From Bacteroidota bacterium (lineage in GTDB: Bacteria > Bacteroidota > Bacteroidia > NS11-12g > UBA955), in contig JAIYAW010000001.1 of assembly GCA_027488835.1 (NCBI GenBank), positions 300,254-364,253 on the forward strand: a stretch of 64,000 nucleotides of DNA, read 5' to 3'. A model generated the notes under the pieces. The model saw nothing but the letters and a program-made list of their open reading frames with translations. It did no database searches and was not told the origin of the DNA. Below are positions 25,301 to 46,666 of this stretch, piece after piece; the first letter of the stretch is position 1; every line of letters starts with the position of its first letter. Both the position numbers and the translations under genes were made by a program.

Positions 25301-26750
25301 TTTGGAATCACTTAAAATACGTTCCATAAATGCGGTTAAATGGACTTCGATAAATCAATTTTTTATCCAAGTAACATCAATTTCGATTGCAATTATATTG
25401 TCTAGAATTCTATCACCTAAGGATTTTGGGATAATTGCATTGATTACGGTTTTTATTAATATAGGCACAATTTTAATGGAGTCGGGGTTAGGATTATCCA
25501 TAATTAGAATGGATAACCCAACTGATTTGGATTATTCGACAGTTTTTATTTATAATTTTTCAATTAGTATACTTTTATATATACTATGTTTTTTTTCAGC
25601 ACCTTTAATATCGTCATTTTATAAAATTCCAATTTTAACTACTGTAATTCAAATTTATTGTTTAATTTTTGTTTTTAATTCTTTGTCTAGTATTTTTTTG
25701 ACGAGACTATCGAAAAGCATGGATTTCAAGACGGATTTTTATTACACATTTCCGGCAGTGCTTTTTGGTGGTTTGGTTGGAATTATTATGGCTTTATTAA
25801 ATTTTGGAGTTTGGAGTTTAGTTGGTAGTGGTTTATCACAATCTTTAATTTTGGCTTTGATATTGTGGTTCAATGGAAATTGGAGGCCCAAATTGAAATT
25901 TGATTTTTTTGTTTTTAAGCATCACTTTAAATTTGGCAATAAATTACTTCTTTCTGGTTTATTGGATACGATTTTTAATAATATTTATACCATATTAATC
26001 GGAAAATATTTCAATTATATTTTGGTTGCACAATACAACAGAGCGGAAAGTCTTAAACAATACCCGATAAATGGTTTAGCGTCTGTATTAAATAAAGTTA
26101 CTTATCCAATGTTTTCTGAGCTAAAAAATAACAACTTGGAATTAAGGAATATTTATGCGAGATTGATGAAAATTGTTTTATTCATTATTGCTCCGATTTT
26201 ATTAATAATTTCTGCATTGTCAAATCCTTTTTTTGCCTTTGTATTTTCGGAAAAGTGGATTCCAGCGGCAGAATATTTTAAAATATTATGTTGGTCAGGA
26301 ATATTATATCCTATCCATTCTTATAATTTAAATATTTTAAAAGTTAAAGGGAGATCAGATTTGTTTTTAAGATTGGAAATTTTCAAAAAAGTTATCTTAG
26401 TTATTATTTTGATAATTTCATTTCAATGGGGGATAAAAGGAATTGTTATAGGAAGTGTAATTACTTCGGTTATTGCATTTTTTGTTAACAGTTATTATTC
26501 TGGAATTTTAATTGGATATAATTTTTTAGACCAAATTAAAGATTTTTTGCCAATTATTTCATTAGCATGGTTCATTAGTTTGATTGTTAATCAAATTGAT
26601 AATTACTTGTTTCAATTAAATTTTTCAGATTTTATCAGATTATTTTTAGGTTTTACTGGAGGGATAATGATATATTTATTTTTAGCGAAACTTTTACACT
26701 TTGAATCAGTGAATGAGATTAAAAAACTATGGAGGAATTTTAAAAAGTGA
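25293..26750 (+). CDS. Wzx-type polysaccharide flippase
   Basis: 485 residues with about 14 hydrophobic segments, of the MOP superfamily (polysaccharide_synt type). Typical opening AVKWTSINQFFIQ and PKDFGIIALI. It would flip the undecaprenyl-linked repeat unit across the inner membrane. TTG start inside the end of the preceding gene (8-base overlap); a second TTG at 25302 is an alternative. The GTG of the next gene lies within its stop region. Confidence 0.9.
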   Translation: MINLESLKIRSINAVKWTSINQFFIQVTSISIAIILSRILSPKDFGIIALITVFINIGTILMESGLGLSIIRMDNPTDLDYSTVFIYNFSISILLYILCFFSAPLISSFYKIPILTTVIQIYCLIFVFNSLSSIFLTRLSKSMDFKTDFYYTFPAVLFGGLVGIIMALLNFGVWSLVGSGLSQSLILALILWFNGNWRPKLKFDFFVFKHHFKFGNKLLLSGLLDTIFNNIYTILIGKYFNYILVAQYNRAESLKQYPINGLASVLNKVTYPMFSELKNNNLELRNIYARLMKIVLFIIAPILLIISALSNPFFAFVFSEKWIPAAEYFKILCWSGILYPIHSYNLNILKVKGRSDLFLRLEIFKKVILVIILIISFQWGIKGIVIGSVITSVIAFFVNSYYSGILIGYNFLDQIKDFLPIISLAWFISLIVNQIDNYLFQLNFSDFIRLFLGFTGGIMIYLFLAKLLHFESVNEIKKLWRNFKK

Positions 26751-27817
26751 TTTCAGTTACTAAACCGTTTCTTCCACCAATTAATGAATATATGGCTCAA
26801 GTTCAAAGAGCCTATGATAATGAGTGGATAACAAACCGAGGAGAGTTGGTTCTTGAATTGGAAGAGAAATTAAAAACATATTTGGATGTTTCAAATATTT
26901 TAATAACCAATAATGGTACAATTCCATTGCAAATTGCTTTGAAGTTACTTGGAAATGGGGGTGAAGTTATTACGACCCCGTTTAGTTATGTTGCGACAAC
27001 TGCGGCAATTGTTTGGGAAAATTGCACTCCGGTTTTTGTTGATATTCATCCAGAATATTTAACAATTGATGAAACATTAATTGAAGCTGCTATTACTCCT
27101 AAAACTACTTGTATTTTGGCAACACATGTATTTGGTAATCCTTGTAATGTTGAGGAAATTGACAGAATTGCAAAAAAGTTCAATTTAAAAGTTATTTATG
27201 ATGCTGCACATTGTTTCGGTGTAAAATATAAAGGAAAATCAATCTTTGAGTATGGTGATATAAGTACTTGCAGTTTCCATGCAACTAAGTTGTTCCATAC
27301 AGGTGAAGGAGGGGCGATTTTTTGTAAGGATGATGAATTAAGACATAAAATATTTTACAGTCATAACTTCGGTCATAATGGACCTATTGATTTTTATGGA
27401 GTAGGAATTAATGGAAAAATTTCAGAATTACAAGCAGCTATGGGATTGTCAGTTTTGCCTTACATGGATTCTATTCTAGGAAAAAGAAAAGAAATTATAG
27501 ATTTTTATAATGCTAATATAGATATTTCTAAATTCGGACCGATTAAAATACGTCAAAATACAATTTGGAATTATAGCTATTATCCTGTTGTTATAGAAAA
27601 GGAATCATTGCTATTGGAATTAATGACTAAATTAAATGAAATGGATATTTTTCCAAGAAGATATTTTAATCCTTCATTGAATACATTAAATTTTATAAAC
27701 AAGCCTTTTTTAAAAATGCATATTTCTGAATCAATATCTCAACGTATTCTGTGTCTTCCTTTATATATTGAGTTAAAATATGAAGAATTAGATAAAATTA
27801 TTAAAACACTTACATGA
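26747..27817 (+). CDS. VioA-like sugar-nucleotide aminotransferase (DegT family)
   Basis: 356 residues from a GTG start. Closest in pattern to VioA, which makes dTDP-4-amino-4,6-dideoxy-hexose: VTKPFLPPINEY, NEWITNRGELVLELE, VITTPFSYVATTAAI and VFGNPCNVEEID. Schiff-base Lys181 is in HATKLFHTGEGG. The next gene, overlapping by 4 bases, is a VioB-like N-acyltransferase, so the pair should yield an N-acylated 4-amino sugar. The required 4-keto precursor is not made by anything in the window. Confidence 0.85.
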   Translation: MISVTKPFLPPINEYMAQVQRAYDNEWITNRGELVLELEEKLKTYLDVSNILITNNGTIPLQIALKLLGNGGEVITTPFSYVATTAAIVWENCTPVFVDIHPEYLTIDETLIEAAITPKTTCILATHVFGNPCNVEEIDRIAKKFNLKVIYDAAHCFGVKYKGKSIFEYGDISTCSFHATKLFHTGEGGAIFCKDDELRHKIFYSHNFGHNGPIDFYGVGINGKISELQAAMGLSVLPYMDSILGKRKEIIDFYNANIDISKFGPIKIRQNTIWNYSYYPVVIEKESLLLELMTKLNEMDIFPRRYFNPSLNTLNFINKPFLKMHISESISQRILCLPLYIELKYEELDKIIKTLT

Positions 27818-28449
27818 TTATAGTTGGAGCAAAGGGATTTGCAAAAGAATTATTATATGTTGCAAAACAAAATCAAATTTCAAATATTGCCTTATTTGAC
27901 AATATCAACAAATATGATGAATATCAATACTTTGGGTATCCCATTTTAACTTGTAAGACAGAAGTTATAAATCATTTTCAAAGTACCAATGATTTTACTT
28001 TTCATATAGGTGTAGGTGGTCCGAAAAACAGAGTAATTTTAAATAATTTATTTGATGATTGGGGTGGAAAAAACATTTCTTTGATAAGTAAAAATACTGA
28101 TATAAGTACCTTTGGTACATCCATAGGTGAAGGTTCAAGCATTTGTTCCGGTGTAATAATAACTAGTGATATTTCTATCGGAAAATGTTGTCTGGTAAAT
28201 TTAAAAGTAACAATTGGCCATGATACAATAATTGGAGATTTTTCGGAATTATGCCCTGGAGTAAATGTTGGTGGAAATTGTAAAATTGGTAATGGTGTAT
28301 TTGTTGGAACGAATGCAACTATTATTCCAAATATTACGATAGGAGATAATGTAATTATTGGGGCTGGAGCGGTTGTTACAAATGATGTCCCCTCCAATGT
28401 TATGATTGCGGGTATACCTGCAGTTATTAAGAAAAATTTAAATAATTAA
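27814..28449 (+). CDS. NeuD/PglD/VioB-like sugar acyltransferase
   Basis: 211 residues. An N-terminal PglD-type nucleotide-sugar-binding fold (IIVGAKGFAKELLYVA) is followed by a left-handed beta helix of hexapeptide repeats (about 95-205), with the usual catalytic His expected in VTIGHDTIIGD. It acetylates, or otherwise acylates, the amino group installed by the preceding aminotransferase. ATG start overlaps the upstream stop. Confidence 0.85.
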   Translation: MIIVGAKGFAKELLYVAKQNQISNIALFDNINKYDEYQYFGYPILTCKTEVINHFQSTNDFTFHIGVGGPKNRVILNNLFDDWGGKNISLISKNTDISTFGTSIGEGSSICSGVIITSDISIGKCCLVNLKVTIGHDTIIGDFSELCPGVNVGGNCKIGNGVFVGTNATIIPNITIGDNVIIGAGAVVTNDVPSNVMIAGIPAVIKKNLNN

Positions 28450-40927: not shown

Positions 40928-41530
40928 GTGTACAGTTTATTTATTAAAAGAATTTGTGATTTAACATTTTCAAGCTTATTATTAATTTGCTCAATACCTG
41001 TGTGGCTTTGGCTATTTTTTCATTGTAAATTTGATTTTTCAAAAATAATTTTCATTCAACCCCGTCCAGGGAGAAATGGTGAAATTTTTCATTTAATTAA
41101 ATTTAAAACGATGACAGATGATCGTGATGCTTCCGGGAAATTGCTCCCTGATAGTTTGAGATTGACAAAACTGGGTCGTTTTTTAAGATCTTCATCATTT
41201 GATGAATTACCACAATTAATTAACGTGCTGAAAGGCGATATGAGTTTAATAGGGCCCAGGCCTCTTTTGGCATCTTATTTGCCCCTGTACAACTCTAGAC
41301 AAATGAAAAGGCATAAAGAAAAACCGGGAATTACAGGATGGGCACAAATAAACGGTAGAAATGAATTAACATGGAATGACAAATTTGAACAAGATTTGTT
41401 TTACGTTGAGAATATTTCATTTAAACTAGATTTCATTATTTTTATGAAAACTATTAAAAATGTTTTTAATAGAACTGGTATTAGTGGCGAAGGCACTGAA
41501 ACAATGATTCCGTTTAAAGGTAATCATTGA
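40928..41530 (+). CDS. initiating sugar-phosphate transferase (PglC-like)
   Basis: 200 residues, GTG start immediately after the previous stop. A single N-terminal membrane helix (about 10-30) then the bacterial sugar transferase core: FIQPRPGRNGEIFHLIKFKTM, SFDELPQLINVLKGDMSLIGPRPL and KPGITGWAQINGRN. Small monotopic type like PglC, which moves phospho-diNAc-bacillosamine to undecaprenyl phosphate. The PglD-like and PglE-like genes downstream support a 4-amino-sugar donor. Confidence 0.92.
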   Translation: MYSLFIKRICDLTFSSLLLICSIPVWLWLFFHCKFDFSKIIFIQPRPGRNGEIFHLIKFKTMTDDRDASGKLLPDSLRLTKLGRFLRSSSFDELPQLINVLKGDMSLIGPRPLLASYLPLYNSRQMKRHKEKPGITGWAQINGRNELTWNDKFEQDLFYVENISFKLDFIIFMKTIKNVFNRTGISGEGTETMIPFKGNH

Positions 41531-41544
41531 TTTTTATTATATTT

Positions 41545-42189
41545 ATGAAACCAATTTTAATATATGGGGCTGGTGGTTTTGGAAAAGAAATCGCTCTCTT
41601 GATCAATGAAATTAATGAAGTAAGTCCAACATGGGAATTAAAAGGTTTTATTGATGATGGATTACCTTTGGGAACGTATATAAAATACGGTTCAGTTTTG
41701 GGTGGAATTGACTTTTTGAACGCTTATCAAAATGAAGTGGCTGTCGTTTTTTCGATAGCAAATCCATTTATATTAAAGGCTGTAGTAGAAAAAATCACGA
41801 ATTCCAATATATATTTTCCTAATATTATATCACCAGGTGTCAAGTTTTATGAGATTGAATCTGTGAAAATGGGTCAAGGAAATGTGTTGATTAATGGTTG
41901 TAGATTAAGTTGCGACATTGAATTGGGAGATTTTAACTTATTCAATGGTTTTGTTGCAATTGGTCATGACGTGAAAGTTGGGAGTTATAATATTTTTAGT
42001 CCAAGTACAAGACTTTCAGGTTCGGTAACTTTGCATGATCAGAATTTCTTTGGTGTAAATTCAATTGTATTGCAAGGCGTAAACATTGGGTCAAATACTA
42101 AAGTTGGTGTGATGAGCGTGATTATGAAGGATACTAAGGATGGATATTTGTATTTTGGAAATCCCGCTAGAAAGGTTTTAGAGCAATGA
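41545..42189 (+). CDS. PglD/NeuD-like sugar N-acyltransferase
   Basis: 214 residues from ATG 41545 (MKPILIYGAGGFGKE); an in-frame TTG at 41527 is less likely. N-terminal sugar-nucleotide-binding fold followed by a left-handed beta helix (about 95-205) with the His of VAIGHDVKVGS as likely catalytic base. It lies between the PglC-like gene and the mini fatty-acid cassette, so it is the best candidate to put that cassette's acyl group on the 4-amino sugar. ATGA overlap with the next gene. Confidence 0.85.
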   Translation: MKPILIYGAGGFGKEIALLINEINEVSPTWELKGFIDDGLPLGTYIKYGSVLGGIDFLNAYQNEVAVVFSIANPFILKAVVEKITNSNIYFPNIISPGVKFYEIESVKMGQGNVLINGCRLSCDIELGDFNLFNGFVAIGHDVKVGSYNIFSPSTRLSGSVTLHDQNFFGVNSIVLQGVNIGSNTKVGVMSVIMKDTKDGYLYFGNPARKVLEQ

Positions 42190-43253
42190 GTTTTTTAAGT
42201 ATTCCCAATGTAGTTATTTCTGGCATCGCTTCATGTGTCCCTCAAGAAATTATTGAGAATATAGATTCTTCTATTTTTGAAAATCGGGATGAGGCACAAA
42301 GATTCATTGATGTAACAGGTATTGAACGTCGACATGTTGTAGGTACAAGAAAAATATGTACGTCAGATTTGTGTGTGCAAGCTGCGAATAAGGTTTTAGA
42401 TGATTTAAATTGGGATAAAAATGATATTGATTGTTTGATTTTTGTAACCCAAACGCCTGATTATATTTTACCTGCTACTTCTTGTATCATTCAAGATAGA
42501 TTGGGTTTATCAAAAGATTGCTTTGCGCTGGATATTTCATTGGGTTGTTCAGGTTGGGTATATGGCTTGTCTGTAATTGCTTCAATGATGCAGTCTGGAA
42601 TGTTTAAAAAAGGACTACTTTTGGCCGGGGATACAACAACGATAACCAAATCAAGTAAAGATAAAAGTACGTTTCCTTTGTTTGGAGATGCAGGAACAGC
42701 AACAGCTTTGGAGTTTCAACAGGATGAAACAGGTTTTCAATTTCATTTTGGCACAGATGGTGCTGGGTATGAATCTATTATAATCAAAGATGGTGGATTT
42801 AGAAATCCATTTTCTGAGAACTCATTGATTGAGAAAGAATATGATGGAGGAATCATTCGCAATGATTCGCAAAGTATTTTGAATGGCGCAAATGTTTTTA
42901 CATTTGGAATTGGCCGCGCACCCAAATCTGTGAAGGCATTAATTGACCGATTTGATATTGATAAACAATCAATTGATTATGTTATTTTCCATCAAGCGAA
43001 CAAAATGATGAACGAGAAAATTCGGATAAAGTTGGGATTTACAGAAGACCAAGTTCCATATTCTCTTAATTCATTTGGAAATACATCGTCTGCTTCAATT
43101 CCATTAACCATGAATTTAAAATTGAGCGATAAACTAAAAAAAACCAATAGAAAAATGCTAGCATGTGGCTTTGGTGTAGGTTTGTCATGGGCAAGTGTTT
43201 ATTTTGAATCAAGGAATATCCTTTGTTCAGAAATTGAATTTTACAAAAATTAA
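42186..43253 (+). CDS. 3-oxoacyl-ACP synthase III (KASIII), copy 1
   Basis: 355-residue FabH-like condensing enzyme. The full triad is present: Cys121 (LGCSGWVYG), His269 (FHQAN), Asn299 (SFGNTSS). It condenses an acyl starter, usually acetyl-CoA, with malonyl-ACP. An ACP gene follows 4 bases later and a second KASIII follows that. Its placement in a glycan locus points to acyl decoration rather than membrane lipid synthesis (inference). Confidence 0.9.
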   Translation: MSFLSIPNVVISGIASCVPQEIIENIDSSIFENRDEAQRFIDVTGIERRHVVGTRKICTSDLCVQAANKVLDDLNWDKNDIDCLIFVTQTPDYILPATSCIIQDRLGLSKDCFALDISLGCSGWVYGLSVIASMMQSGMFKKGLLLAGDTTTITKSSKDKSTFPLFGDAGTATALEFQQDETGFQFHFGTDGAGYESIIIKDGGFRNPFSENSLIEKEYDGGIIRNDSQSILNGANVFTFGIGRAPKSVKALIDRFDIDKQSIDYVIFHQANKMMNEKIRIKLGFTEDQVPYSLNSFGNTSSASIPLTMNLKLSDKLKKTNRKMLACGFGVGLSWASVYFESRNILCSEIEFYKN

Positions 43254-43257
43254 AAAA

Positions 43258-43488
43258 ATGATACAACAAAAATTTATTGACTTATTAATTGAAACACTAG
43301 AAATTACTGATCGTGAAATAACAATTACGGATGAATTTCGTACTTATCCTGAATGGGATTCTTTGGCTCTTTTATCCGTTATTGCAATGATTGATGATGA
43401 ATTTGACGTTATTATAGAAGGCAACGATTTTGCAAAATTGATGACAGTTTCAGATTTAATTCAAGCAATTGACTCTGCAAAGCAATAA
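43258..43488 (+). CDS. acyl carrier protein
   Basis: 76 residues from ATG 43258. Four-helix ACP with the phosphopantetheine attachment Ser35 in EWDSLALLS. It is acidic, as expected. A dedicated ACP between two KASIII genes shows that the acyl chain is built on its own carrier. Upstream in-frame codons reach into the KASIII gene and are rejected as the start. Confidence 0.92.
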   Translation: MIQQKFIDLLIETLEITDREITITDEFRTYPEWDSLALLSVIAMIDDEFDVIIEGNDFAKLMTVSDLIQAIDSAKQ

Positions 43489-43493
43489 TATTA

Positions 43494-44552
43494 TTGGCTG
43501 ATTTACAATTTATTGGAGTTGGAATAACAGCGCTTGCTGCGGCAGTACCAAAGAATATTGTCCGAAATATTGATTACAATAGCCACTTCCCTCAAAATGA
43601 TGTTTTAGAAATCATCGAAAAAACGGGTATTGTTGAAAGGAGATTTGTTTCTGAGGGACAATGCGCAAGTGATTTGTGTTTTGCCGCTGCAGAAAAATTA
43701 ATTTCTGATAATTTTATTGATAAATCTGAAATTGATTTGTTGATATTTATTTCTCAAACACCGGATTACAGAATGCCGGCAACGTCTATTTTATTACAAG
43801 AAAGATTGGGTTTATCAAAGCAAACAATGGCATTTGATATTAATTTGGGATGTTCCGCTTTTGTATATGGTTTATCGGTAGTTTATTCATTGATGGAAAG
43901 GAGCGGCTTCAGGAAAGCGCTGCTATTAGATGGTGAGACTAGGTCTAAGATTTACCATCCTAAAGATAGAAAAACGGCTTTTCTTTTTGGGGATGGTGGC
44001 GTTGCGGCTTTAATTGAAAGAAATATTAAGTTTAATAAGAGTTTTTTTAATTTAGGAAGCGATGGTTCCAAATCACATTTGATTTCTATGAAGTCGGGTG
44101 GATACAGAAATCCAAGTAGTTCTGAATCATTTTTTGAACGCGTTTATGATGAAAATGGCAACGTTTCAACAGATGAACATGGTAGAATGGATGGGGGAGA
44201 AGTTTTTAATTTTGTTTTGAAAGAAATTCCCTCAAGTGTAAAAAAAATAATGAAAACTGCAGATGTCACAAATAATGAAATTGATTATTTTGTATTACAT
44301 CAGGCGAATAAATTCATGAATGGTTATTTGCAAAAAAAGTTCAAACTTGAAGATGAAAAATTTCCCTTGTCCATTGCTAAGTTTGGAAATACTTCTTCCG
44401 TATCTATTCCACTTACAATTGTAAGTGAATTGGAAATTCAAATGGATGGGCACAAGAAATTATTATTATCGGGATTTGGTGTAGGAATGAGTTGGGCAAG
44501 TTGTATTATTGAAACTGACAATTTGAAAATATCTAAATTAATAGAAATATGA
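43494..44552 (+). CDS. 3-oxoacyl-ACP synthase III (KASIII), copy 2
   Basis: 352 residues, TTG start 5 bases after the ACP stop. Triad complete: Cys120 (LGCSAFVYG), His269 (LHQAN), Asn299 (KFGNTSS). Clearly paralogous to copy 1 (same motifs and spacing) but diverged, which fits a different starter: a second round of elongation of the product of copy 1. ATGA overlap with the reductase gene. Confidence 0.9.
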   Translation: MADLQFIGVGITALAAAVPKNIVRNIDYNSHFPQNDVLEIIEKTGIVERRFVSEGQCASDLCFAAAEKLISDNFIDKSEIDLLIFISQTPDYRMPATSILLQERLGLSKQTMAFDINLGCSAFVYGLSVVYSLMERSGFRKALLLDGETRSKIYHPKDRKTAFLFGDGGVAALIERNIKFNKSFFNLGSDGSKSHLISMKSGGYRNPSSSESFFERVYDENGNVSTDEHGRMDGGEVFNFVLKEIPSSVKKIMKTADVTNNEIDYFVLHQANKFMNGYLQKKFKLEDEKFPLSIAKFGNTSSVSIPLTIVSELEIQMDGHKKLLLSGFGVGMSWASCIIETDNLKISKLIEI

Positions 44553-45307
44553 ATCATCCTTTTGATTTAACTGGTAAAAGAATTTTAGTTACTGGAGCTT
44601 CTTCTGGAATTGGGAGAGCTGTTGCCATTGAGTGCAGCAAATTGGGTGCAGAATTGATTCTGTTAGGAAGAAATGAAGAAAGGCTCGTTGATACTCTAGC
44701 CAATTTGACAGGAGATAATCATAAATATTTTATTTTAGATTTCACGAAAAAAAATGATTTTGAGGGACTAAATGAGTTGATTTCAACGCATGGTAAATTG
44801 AATGGATTGGTACATTGTGCTGGCATAACTTCTACATTACCAATAAAGTCTATTTCAGCTGAGCGTTTGCAAAGTGCATTTGAAACTAACGTATTTGGGG
44901 CATTTGAATTAACAAAGTGGTTTACCAAGAAAACGGTGATTCACGAAACAGGAGGAAGTGTTGTATTTATCGCTTCAGTCATGGGAATTGTAGGAGAGGT
45001 TGGTAAGAGTTTATATTCTATGACAAAGGGGGCTTTGATTAGTGGATCTAAATCTATGGCATTAGAGCTTGCATCTAGAAAAATTAGGGTAAATTGTATC
45101 TCTCCGGGTGTTGTTTTAACGCCGATGGTTGAAAATGGAGTTTATGCGAATGATGATAATTTATTTCAAAAAGTAAAAGATCTACATCCACTGGGACTCG
45201 GAAAACCTGAAGATATTGCACATAGCGTAAACTTCCTTTTGAGTGAAGCATCTCAATGGATTACAGGCACAAATATTGTTGTTGATGGTGGATATTCTGC
45301 GCATTGA
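44549..45307 (+). CDS. short-chain dehydrogenase, FabG-like 3-ketoacyl reductase
   Basis: 252 residues. Cofactor motif GASSGIGRA (16-24), Asn114, Ser143, Tyr156 and Lys160 (YSMTK) form a complete catalytic set. In this context it would reduce the 3-oxo group made by each KASIII to a hydroxyl. No dehydratase or enoyl reductase is encoded beside it, so hydroxyls should remain in the product. Last gene before an internal promoter. Confidence 0.88.
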   Translation: MNHPFDLTGKRILVTGASSGIGRAVAIECSKLGAELILLGRNEERLVDTLANLTGDNHKYFILDFTKKNDFEGLNELISTHGKLNGLVHCAGITSTLPIKSISAERLQSAFETNVFGAFELTKWFTKKTVIHETGGSVVFIASVMGIVGEVGKSLYSMTKGALISGSKSMALELASRKIRVNCISPGVVLTPMVENGVYANDDNLFQKVKDLHPLGLGKPEDIAHSVNFLLSEASQWITGTNIVVDGGYSAH

Positions 45308-45363
45308 CAATTACACTGTAATATTAAATTATTTGAATTACCTAAAGTAATTTAATCAAAACC

Positions 45364-45395
45364 TTGGTTTTAGATAGAATTCTATACTACTTTTG
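45364..45395 (+). promoter_or_regulatory. internal promoter with palindrome
   Basis: TTG (45364-45366), 21-base spacer, TACTTTTG (45388-45395): the best -33/-7 pair in the window. The spacer holds a perfect palindrome ATAGAATTCTAT (45374-45385), related to the dyad at 14594-14611 and well placed to block transcription when bound. It would drive the PglE-like aminotransferase gene. Confidence 0.65.
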
Positions 45396-45475
45396 TAAAT
45401 CAAAAAATAAATTTGTAATTGGTAAAACTATTATCAAATAATTATTTTTCATAAAATAAATCCTCTTGCGCTTAA

Positions 45476-46666
45476 ATGATAGAATCAACTGAATTAAAGA
45501 AAAATATTGAAGACCAAAATTCTAATTTTGATTATGAATCAGATAGAATTTGGTTGTCATCACCTCATATGAGTGGTGAGGAGCAAAAGTATATTCAGGA
45601 GGCATTTAAAACAAATTGGATAGCCCCTTTAGGTGCCAATGTTGATGGATTTGAGCAAGATTTATGCGATTTCACTGGTGCTAAATATGCAGCGGCGTTG
45701 TCATCGGGAACAGCTGCTATTCATCTTGCTTTGAAATTATGTAATGTTGGAATTGATGATTATGTGATTTGCCAAAGCTTTACTTTTGTAGCTACTGCAA
45801 ATGCAATTGTTTATGAAAAGGCAATTCCGATTTTTGTTGATTCAGAAACGGAAACCTGGGGAATGGATCCAAAATTATTAGAAAAAGCAATCTTACACTG
45901 TATTTCTTTAGAAAAAAAGCCAAAGGCAATTATACCCGTTCACTTATATGGGATGCCCGTAAAAATGGAAGAAATCATGGAAATTGCCCGAAAATATAAT
46001 ATTCCGGTAATTGAAGATGCTGCAGAAGCGTTGGGTTCGACTATTCATGGCAAACAATGCGGCACTTTTGGTGATTATGGTATAGTTAGTTTTAATGGAA
46101 ATAAAATTATTACCACATCGGGTGGAGGAATGCTGCTGTCGAATGATAAAGTTGCAATAGAGAAGGCAAGGTTTTTAGCTACCCAATCTAGAGACGATGC
46201 ACCATATTACGCGCATTCTGAATTAGGTTATAATTATAGGTTGAGTAATGTTTTGGCTGGAATTGGAAGAGGTCAAATGGAGGTTATTTCAGATAGGGTT
46301 AACCAACGCAGATCAAATTTTGATTTTTATCAAAGTGAATTAAAAAACATTCCGGGAATTTCATTTTTACCTGAGCAGGATTTTTGCGAAAGTAACCGTT
46401 GGTTAACAATTATATTGGTTGATCCAGAACTAACAGGCGGAGTAACTTCTGAGGACATTCGGTTGACGTTGTTGACGGAAAGCATAGAATCTAGACCATT
46501 GTGGAAGCCAATGCACATGCAAACTTTATATGATAAGAATCCATATTTTGGGCATGGGGTTGCAATGAAATTATTTAAAACAGGTCTGTGTTTGCCAAGT
46601 GGAAGTAATTTAACAACTGAGGAGTTACAAAGGGTTGTTGCTGCCGTAAAAAGGTGTTTTAATTAA
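45476..46666 (+). CDS. PglE-like sugar-nucleotide aminotransferase (DegT family)
   Basis: 396 residues. RIWLSSPHMSGEEQKYI and NWIAPLGANVDGFE are typical of the PglE/LegC-type group that aminates C4 of UDP-4-keto-6-deoxy-GlcNAc. Schiff-base Lys210 is in SFNGNKIITTSGGG. With the PglC- and PglD-like genes upstream it completes a bacillosamine-type pathway except for the 4,6-dehydratase, which is not in the window. It has its own promoter. Confidence 0.88.
   Translation: MIESTELKKNIEDQNSNFDYESDRIWLSSPHMSGEEQKYIQEAFKTNWIAPLGANVDGFEQDLCDFTGAKYAAALSSGTAAIHLALKLCNVGIDDYVICQSFTFVATANAIVYEKAIPIFVDSETETWGMDPKLLEKAILHCISLEKKPKAIIPVHLYGMPVKMEEIMEIARKYNIPVIEDAAEALGSTIHGKQCGTFGDYGIVSFNGNKIITTSGGGMLLSNDKVAIEKARFLATQSRDDAPYYAHSELGYNYRLSNVLAGIGRGQMEVISDRVNQRRSNFDFYQSELKNIPGISFLPEQDFCESNRWLTIILVDPELTGGVTSEDIRLTLLTESIESRPLWKPMHMQTLYDKNPYFGHGVAMKLFKTGLCLPSGSNLTTEELQRVVAAVKRCFN

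Follow-up and report, generated by a model that had tools for sequence, protein, structure and literature searches.

A cassette with two KASIII ketosynthases and its own acyl carrier protein, predicted to build a short dihydroxyacyl group for a surface amino sugar in a Bacteroidota bacterium

Why should a polysaccharide locus carry two ketosynthases and an acyl carrier protein (ACP) of its own? The question is raised by a run of genes at 40928-46666 in a 64,000-nucleotide stretch of a Bacteroidota genome (contig JAIYAW010000001.1 of assembly GCA_027488835.1; the window hereafter), in which two beta-ketoacyl-ACP synthases III (KASIII; KAS1 and KAS2) with intact Cys-His-Asn triads lie on either side of an ACP gene and are followed by a FabG-like short-chain reductase (SDR), a layout that an original prediction had described and with which both the reading frames and Pfam agree. 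We propose, at a probability of roughly 60 %, that the cassette encodes a self-contained type II mini-synthase, which would assemble a short-chain dihydroxyacyl group on the ACP of the cassette and pass this group to an amino sugar that forms part of a surface polysaccharide. This reading is carried by the gene content of the cassette, its catalytic residues, its dedicated ACP, the recurrence of related cassettes with one or two KAS, and the co-occurrence of KAS clades among them. The genes, whose reading frames are all intact and all on the same strand, are the following (aa, amino acids):

40928-41530, + strand: PglC-like phosphoglycosyl transferase, 200 aa (PF02397, 191 bits)
41548-42189, + strand, ATG start: PglD/NeuD-like left-handed beta-helix (LbH) N-acyltransferase, 213 aa (PglD_N and hexapeptide)
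42186-43253, + strand: KASIII copy 1 (KAS1, clade A; PF08541/PF08545 above cut-off)
43258-43488, + strand: ACP, 76 aa (PF00550, 31 bits)
43494-44552, + strand, TTG start: KASIII copy 2 (KAS2, clade B; PF08541/PF08545 above cut-off)
44549-45307, + strand: FabG-like SDR, 252 aa (PF13561, 177 bits; PF00106)
45476-46666, + strand: PglE-like DegT aminotransferase, 396 aa (PF01041, 322 bits)

The PglC-like gene lies directly upstream of the PglD-like gene and belongs to the set, and a gene of this kind also stands beside many related cassettes. As for the claim that the genes are tightly packed, it stands from the PglD-like gene to the SDR, with 4-base overlaps at PglD-like/KAS1 and KAS2/SDR and gaps of 4 bases (KAS1-ACP) and 5 bases (ACP-KAS2), but not for the aminotransferase, which does not abut the SDR and begins 168 bases after it. 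KAS1 and KAS2 share 42 % identity and are of the same family as E. coli FabH, whose Cys112-His244-Asn274 triad is kept in both; they differ from FabH, against which all KAS residues are numbered here, at Trp32 (R in KAS1, E in KAS2) and Arg36 (V in KAS1, K in KAS2), and position 151 is K in KAS1 and R in KAS2. In the translations the ACP has a DSL serine and the SDR a YxxxK, the usual motifs of such proteins; the YxxxK is of the reductase type and not of the FabI spacing. Among NCBIfam models the SDR matches SDR/FabG ones best, under their cut-offs. In the PglD-like protein both PglD_N and the hexapeptide repeats score above the Pfam cut-offs, the NCBIfam NeuD_NnaD score lies below its cut-off (144.2 vs 160.8 bits), and solved VioB, perosamine and bacillosamine N-acetyltransferases are matched. 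The aminotransferase has 64 % identity to one that adjoins a PglF-like gene in a related cassette (L057). Furthermore, the ACP looks dedicated, as had been proposed, because the 2.49-Mb genome has just 3 matches to PF08541 (KASIII), 2 of them in the cassette, and 2 to PF00550 (carrier protein), 1 of them in the cassette. For the SDR, the same genome encodes two weaker relatives (34-35 % identity, E up to 1e-20).

We infer every catalytic step, and with it the chain length, the order of the two KAS and the sugar, as follows. KAS2 would condense acetyl-CoA with malonyl-ACP, and a first round of reduction would give 3-hydroxybutyryl-ACP; KAS1 would join this ACP-bound C4 chain to a second malonyl unit, and the same reductase would in round two yield 3,5-dihydroxyhexanoyl-ACP. 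The PglD-like enzyme would then place the acyl group on the 4-amine of a UDP-4-amino-4,6-dideoxy sugar, itself the presumed product of the PglE-like aminotransferase and of a PglF encoded elsewhere in the genome (a single full-length PF02719 match at contig 1:181610, ~160 kb from the cassette), and the PglC-like enzyme would begin the lipid-linked unit, probably by loading the acylated sugar onto the lipid carrier. As far as sequence can speak, the earlier idea of a mini type II synthase with two condensing enzymes feeding an amino-sugar N-acyltransferase is thereby supported.

The precedent invoked for this idea is real. For the O-polysaccharide of Flavobacterium psychrophilum there is nuclear magnetic resonance evidence of a 3,5-dihydroxyhexanoyl amide on Qui2NAc4N, and the authors predict that the wfpC and wfpE ketosynthases, the wfpD ACP, the wfpF reductase and the PglD homolog wfpG make and transfer this group (Cisar 2019, PMC6519341). 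Owing to that publication, the pathway is already in print for F. psychrophilum, as a prediction. In the kinds of genes described there, wfpB-wfpG and pglE resemble the window cassette in having two distinct ketosynthases, a dedicated ACP, a ketoacyl reductase, a PglD homolog, a PglC homolog and PglE; however, pglF lies inside the F. psychrophilum cluster instead of ~160 kb off, and the PglD homolog, which comes first here, would come last there if, as we infer, the wfp letters follow the gene order. A second system, the viosamine island of Pseudomonas syringae, comprises vioA, vioS (its one KASIII), vioB, vioR and acp for a 4-(3-hydroxybutyryl)amino sugar, and deletion of the reductase gene vioR abolished modified viosamine (PMC3927599). 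It likewise combines KASIII, ACP, reductase, acyltransferase and aminotransferase for an N-hydroxyacyl 4-amino sugar, a likeness by gene kinds, but it has one KASIII where the window cassette has two, a C4 group, and its sugar sits on flagellin. One KASIII with C4 in P. syringae and two with C6 in F. psychrophilum: as described in these sources, both systems fit.

Is such a cassette a chance assembly? It is not, because the combination of ACP, two KASIII of the same two clades, SDR and LbH acyltransferase is found again in assemblies of Chlorobium, Bacteroidales, Prevotella, Balneolaceae and Methylotenera. With matches accepted up to E 1e-50, relatives of KAS1 are present in 28 of 296 genomes across the phylum and, among 57 close relatives, in 3, the own genome being included in both counts; up to E 1e-70, 38 of 348 Flavobacterium genomes have a relative of KAS2. 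When named genomes were scanned for the gene pattern, at least 80 loci came up, none of those listed being from F. psychrophilum. The closest copies are found in three f18 genomes, two of them matching Chlorobium/Chlorobiaceae assemblies (58-60 % identity for KAS1, 55-58 % for PglD), and the Bacteroidales assembly L152 is also among the closest (59 % for KAS1 and for the acyltransferase). Viral contigs gave 7 pattern matches, none of them a relative, and KASIII in phage records reached at most 38.6 % identity, in a match over half of the query.

Our counts refer to 62 cassettes, each with ACP, SDR and LbH acyltransferase, which form a sample seeded from the window cassette and not a census; L139, L145 and L112 were removed as copies of L042, L043 and L111, the only duplicates taken out. 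Clades A (window KAS1), B (window KAS2), C and D come from a tree of 59 KAS, further loci being labelled by best BLAST hit, and X is a leftover label for KAS outside A-D, not a clade. On a quick tree of all KAS of the 62 cassettes the labels A to D required one change each (support 99, 99, 90 and 100, respectively) and X three. The KAS complements were B alone in 24 cassettes, A+C in 9, A+B in 9, A+A+B in 1, C+D in 8, X alone in 4, A+X in 3, C alone in 2 and C+X in 2. Cassettes with a single KAS from Flavobacterium and its relatives (L052, L054-L058, L092-L100 and others) share with the window an ACP, a clade B KAS, an SDR and a PglD-like gene, mostly with a PglC-like gene and often with PglE and PglF, but they have no clade A KAS, their acyltransferases fall in another clade, and their predicted group is C4. 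The Flavobacterium loci L109 and L110, with a presumed wfp-like order, carry clades C + D, whereas the window cassette carries A + B.

Which of the two KAS starts the chain? In the original prediction the chain is begun by copy 1 and lengthened by copy 2, and here the evidence points the other way. Clade B stands alone in 24 of the 62 cassettes, whereas clade A is found alone in none and with a partner in 22. Cys112, His244 and Asn274 are kept in every KAS group, and position 36 is K in all 34 clade B and all 21 clade C enzymes, neither K nor R in all 23 of clade A, T in all 8 of clade D, and S, T or M in the 9 X enzymes. Exactly one KAS with a basic residue at this position is present in 28 of 31 two-KAS cassettes (the other 3 have none) and in the single three-KAS cassette, and a basic KAS in 26 of 30 one-KAS cassettes. 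An ACP-loading gene accompanies 6 of the 7 cassettes without a basic KAS (FkbH in 5, AMP ligase in 1), vs 2 of the 55 others; the Fisher p of 3e-6 overstates independence, since the loader models were made after the exceptions had been seen and the KAS of the five FkbH cassettes are close kin. NCBIfam confirms FkbH in L102, L129, L141 and L164, and the matches of the L103 AMP ligase lie below the NCBIfam cut-offs. Furthermore, on each of two Parabacteroides plasmids, which do not belong to the 62 cassettes, a lone KASIII and an LbH acyltransferase occur with two ACPs and an AMP ligase (AMP-binding protein), and both KASIII, which fall inside clade A, one on a long branch, have no basic residue 36. 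From the lone clade B enzymes, residue 36 and these lone clade A enzymes next to an AMP ligase and two ACPs, it would follow that KAS2 is the starter and KAS1 the extender. Arg36 of FabH is named as a CoA contact in two papers (PMC4606726; PMC9040583).

The acyltransferases offer a further view of the chain that they would transfer. Their tree (ACYLTRANSFERASE) comprises 60 sequences, fragments below 170 aa being omitted (2 of 62: L190 and L051). The 24 acyltransferases of the clade-B-alone cassettes form one clade (100/100) without a two-KAS member, and the window acyltransferase groups with the two-KAS partners of f18/Chlorobium, Bacteroidales and Prevotella (6 rows, 99/94). The label of one or two KAS changes 5 times on this tree vs 20.3 times in shuffles, a difference inflated by near-copies. 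Among B-containing cassettes alone, the label changes once on the acyltransferase tree (a quick one, with a very long branch for L165), twice on the reductase tree and 4 times on that of clade B KAS.

Nevertheless, a number of observations weigh against the dihydroxyacyl reading or against its order of KAS. The likeness to the wfp genes is one of gene kinds, as these are described, and orthology to them is at most presumed. The next larger acyltransferase group (8 rows, 99/97) includes the one-KAS cassette L141 with FkbH. Clade A, by BLAST label, is alone in 23 sets without a same-strand LbH acyltransferase, 22 of which have an ACP; the two whose neighbours were scanned, L050 and L126, have GT2 and GNAT genes nearby, and in a third, L132, a truncated KAS adjoins. 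Clade D enzymes, in the printed sequences, have a K one residue ahead of position 36, and Trp at position 32 is absent from the listed residues of every cassette group. Outside the LbH cassettes, two-KAS sets have one basic KAS in 14 of 19 cases and none in 5 of 19, and where a basic KAS is lacking, 29 of 38 such sets show no loader either. L187, which lies at a contig end, has neither a basic KAS nor a loader, and L222, from the genus of the window, has two clade A KAS (residue 36 is S in one and H in the other), lacks clades B and C, and shows no loader.

L222 also speaks for the alternative that the pathway is the same but runs in the order first proposed, with KAS1 starting from acetyl-CoA and KAS2 extending. 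This order is further suggested by gene order only, KAS1 coming first, and by Arg36, which is no proven CoA/ACP switch and is named for ACP binding as well in one of the papers cited (PMC9040583). We consider it unlikely in view of the 24 clade-B-alone cassettes against none of clade A, the lack of a basic residue 36 in clade A, and the Parabacteroides enzymes with their AMP ligase and two ACPs.

In a further alternative, only the first keto group might be reduced, or the two KAS might differ in their starters, so that 5-hydroxy-3-oxohexanoyl or a mixture of C4 and C6 acyl groups would result, an outcome to which we grant an equally small chance. A single reductase would have to serve two rounds, where L222 has two; furthermore, in the best tree the window reductase falls with the one-KAS reductases, the other 9 two-KAS reductases forming a clade of their own (100/99), which makes the second reduction less sure. 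However, an approximately unbiased (AU) test does not reject a grouping of the window reductase with the two-KAS ones (p 0.19), and F. psychrophilum has a fully reduced group with one named reductase (PMC6519341). Together with the AU p of 0.08 for the clade B KAS, the reductase result is suggestive, and no more, of a mosaic origin of the window cassette. The least probable alternative, in which the two KASIII form one heterodimer, in the style of PqsB/PqsC, or one of them acts as an acyl transferase, so that a single condensation would give a C4 group, matches the adjacent paralogous pair around one ACP but is disfavoured by the two intact triads and by two-KAS acyltransferases that lie in other clades than the 24 of the clade-B-alone cassettes.

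Could the KASIII genes of such cassettes be read as a code for the N-acyl group of a glycan? Tentatively, and with somewhat more doubt than belief, we suggest that the number of KAS might give the number of two-carbon extensions, that a basic residue at position 36 might mark a CoA primer and a non-basic one an ACP-bound primer (from an FkbH or AMP ligase loader), and that the window cassette might have been pieced together from a one-KAS core (clade B KAS and reductase) and an extension module (clade A KAS and matching acyltransferase). A strict universal rule for residue 36 was rejected, as it fails outside the LbH cassettes, in L222 and in L187. This kind of cassette and the idea of its product are known. 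What goes beyond print, as far as our searches show, is that each of the two KAS types is given a role and that the acyl group is tied to the KAS complement in a way that can be tested; no KAS-number or FkbH rule for O-antigen loci was found in the open PMC literature. Acyl groups on sugars help to decide serotype, and in F. psychrophilum, strains with O-polysaccharide loci that are distinguished by their R-group genes alone differ in lipopolysaccharide antigenicity (PMC6519341). Should the acyl chain be predictable from the KAS complement, glycan chemistry could in part be read from many Bacteroidota genomes and some of other phyla. The cassettes also supply a concrete KASIII set for testing the choice between CoA- and ACP-bound primers.

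Several related loci depart from the two-KAS layout. L222 (5159-12701) reads PglC, PglD, ACP, SDR, KAS, SDR, KAS, a GT9 gene and DegT, and the Bacteroidales locus L152 (4026-10790) has three KASIII (A, A, B), two ACPs and two SDRs, for either a three-round chain or two cassettes. KASIII with FkbH and two ACPs occur in L102, L119, L120, L129, L134, L137, L138, L140, L141 and L164, possibly for glyceryl-primed acyl groups, and L129 also carries a glyoxalase-family gene. Within the two-KAS cassettes L045 and L047 Pfam finds a gene of the Rieske ring-hydroxylating oxygenase type, as if the acyl chain were oxidised further, and by BLAST a Rieske-type gene is present in L048, L103-L106, L108, L111, L113, L170, L172, L174 and L185. 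In L050, L126, L163 and others, a clade A-like KAS and an ACP, often with an SDR, are accompanied by GT2 and GNAT genes instead of an LbH acyltransferase. Azospirillum plasmid loci, left uncounted, have KASIII and SDR near GNAT genes, with T at position 36 in both and outside clades A-D.

In the window itself, a promoter and terminator scan gave 29 promoter-like matches vs 31.1 in shuffles, and a structure prediction of KAS1 from its single sequence (mean pLDDT 37.2) was not used. The cassette closes a longer region, ~20989-46666, whose genes, mostly named by reading their translations, appear to encode a flippase and export and chain-length proteins, along with glycosyltransferases, proteins resembling deacetylases, and two pairs of an aminotransferase and an acyltransferase. 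GC content in 2-kb steps is 26-31 % at 24-42 kb and 33-34 % at 42-46 kb. At 26747-28449 lies the second pair, a DegT aminotransferase and a NeuD/PglD-like acyltransferase, and this aminotransferase has 67 % identity to the one beside the Flavobacterium A+C cassettes L045, L047 and L048.

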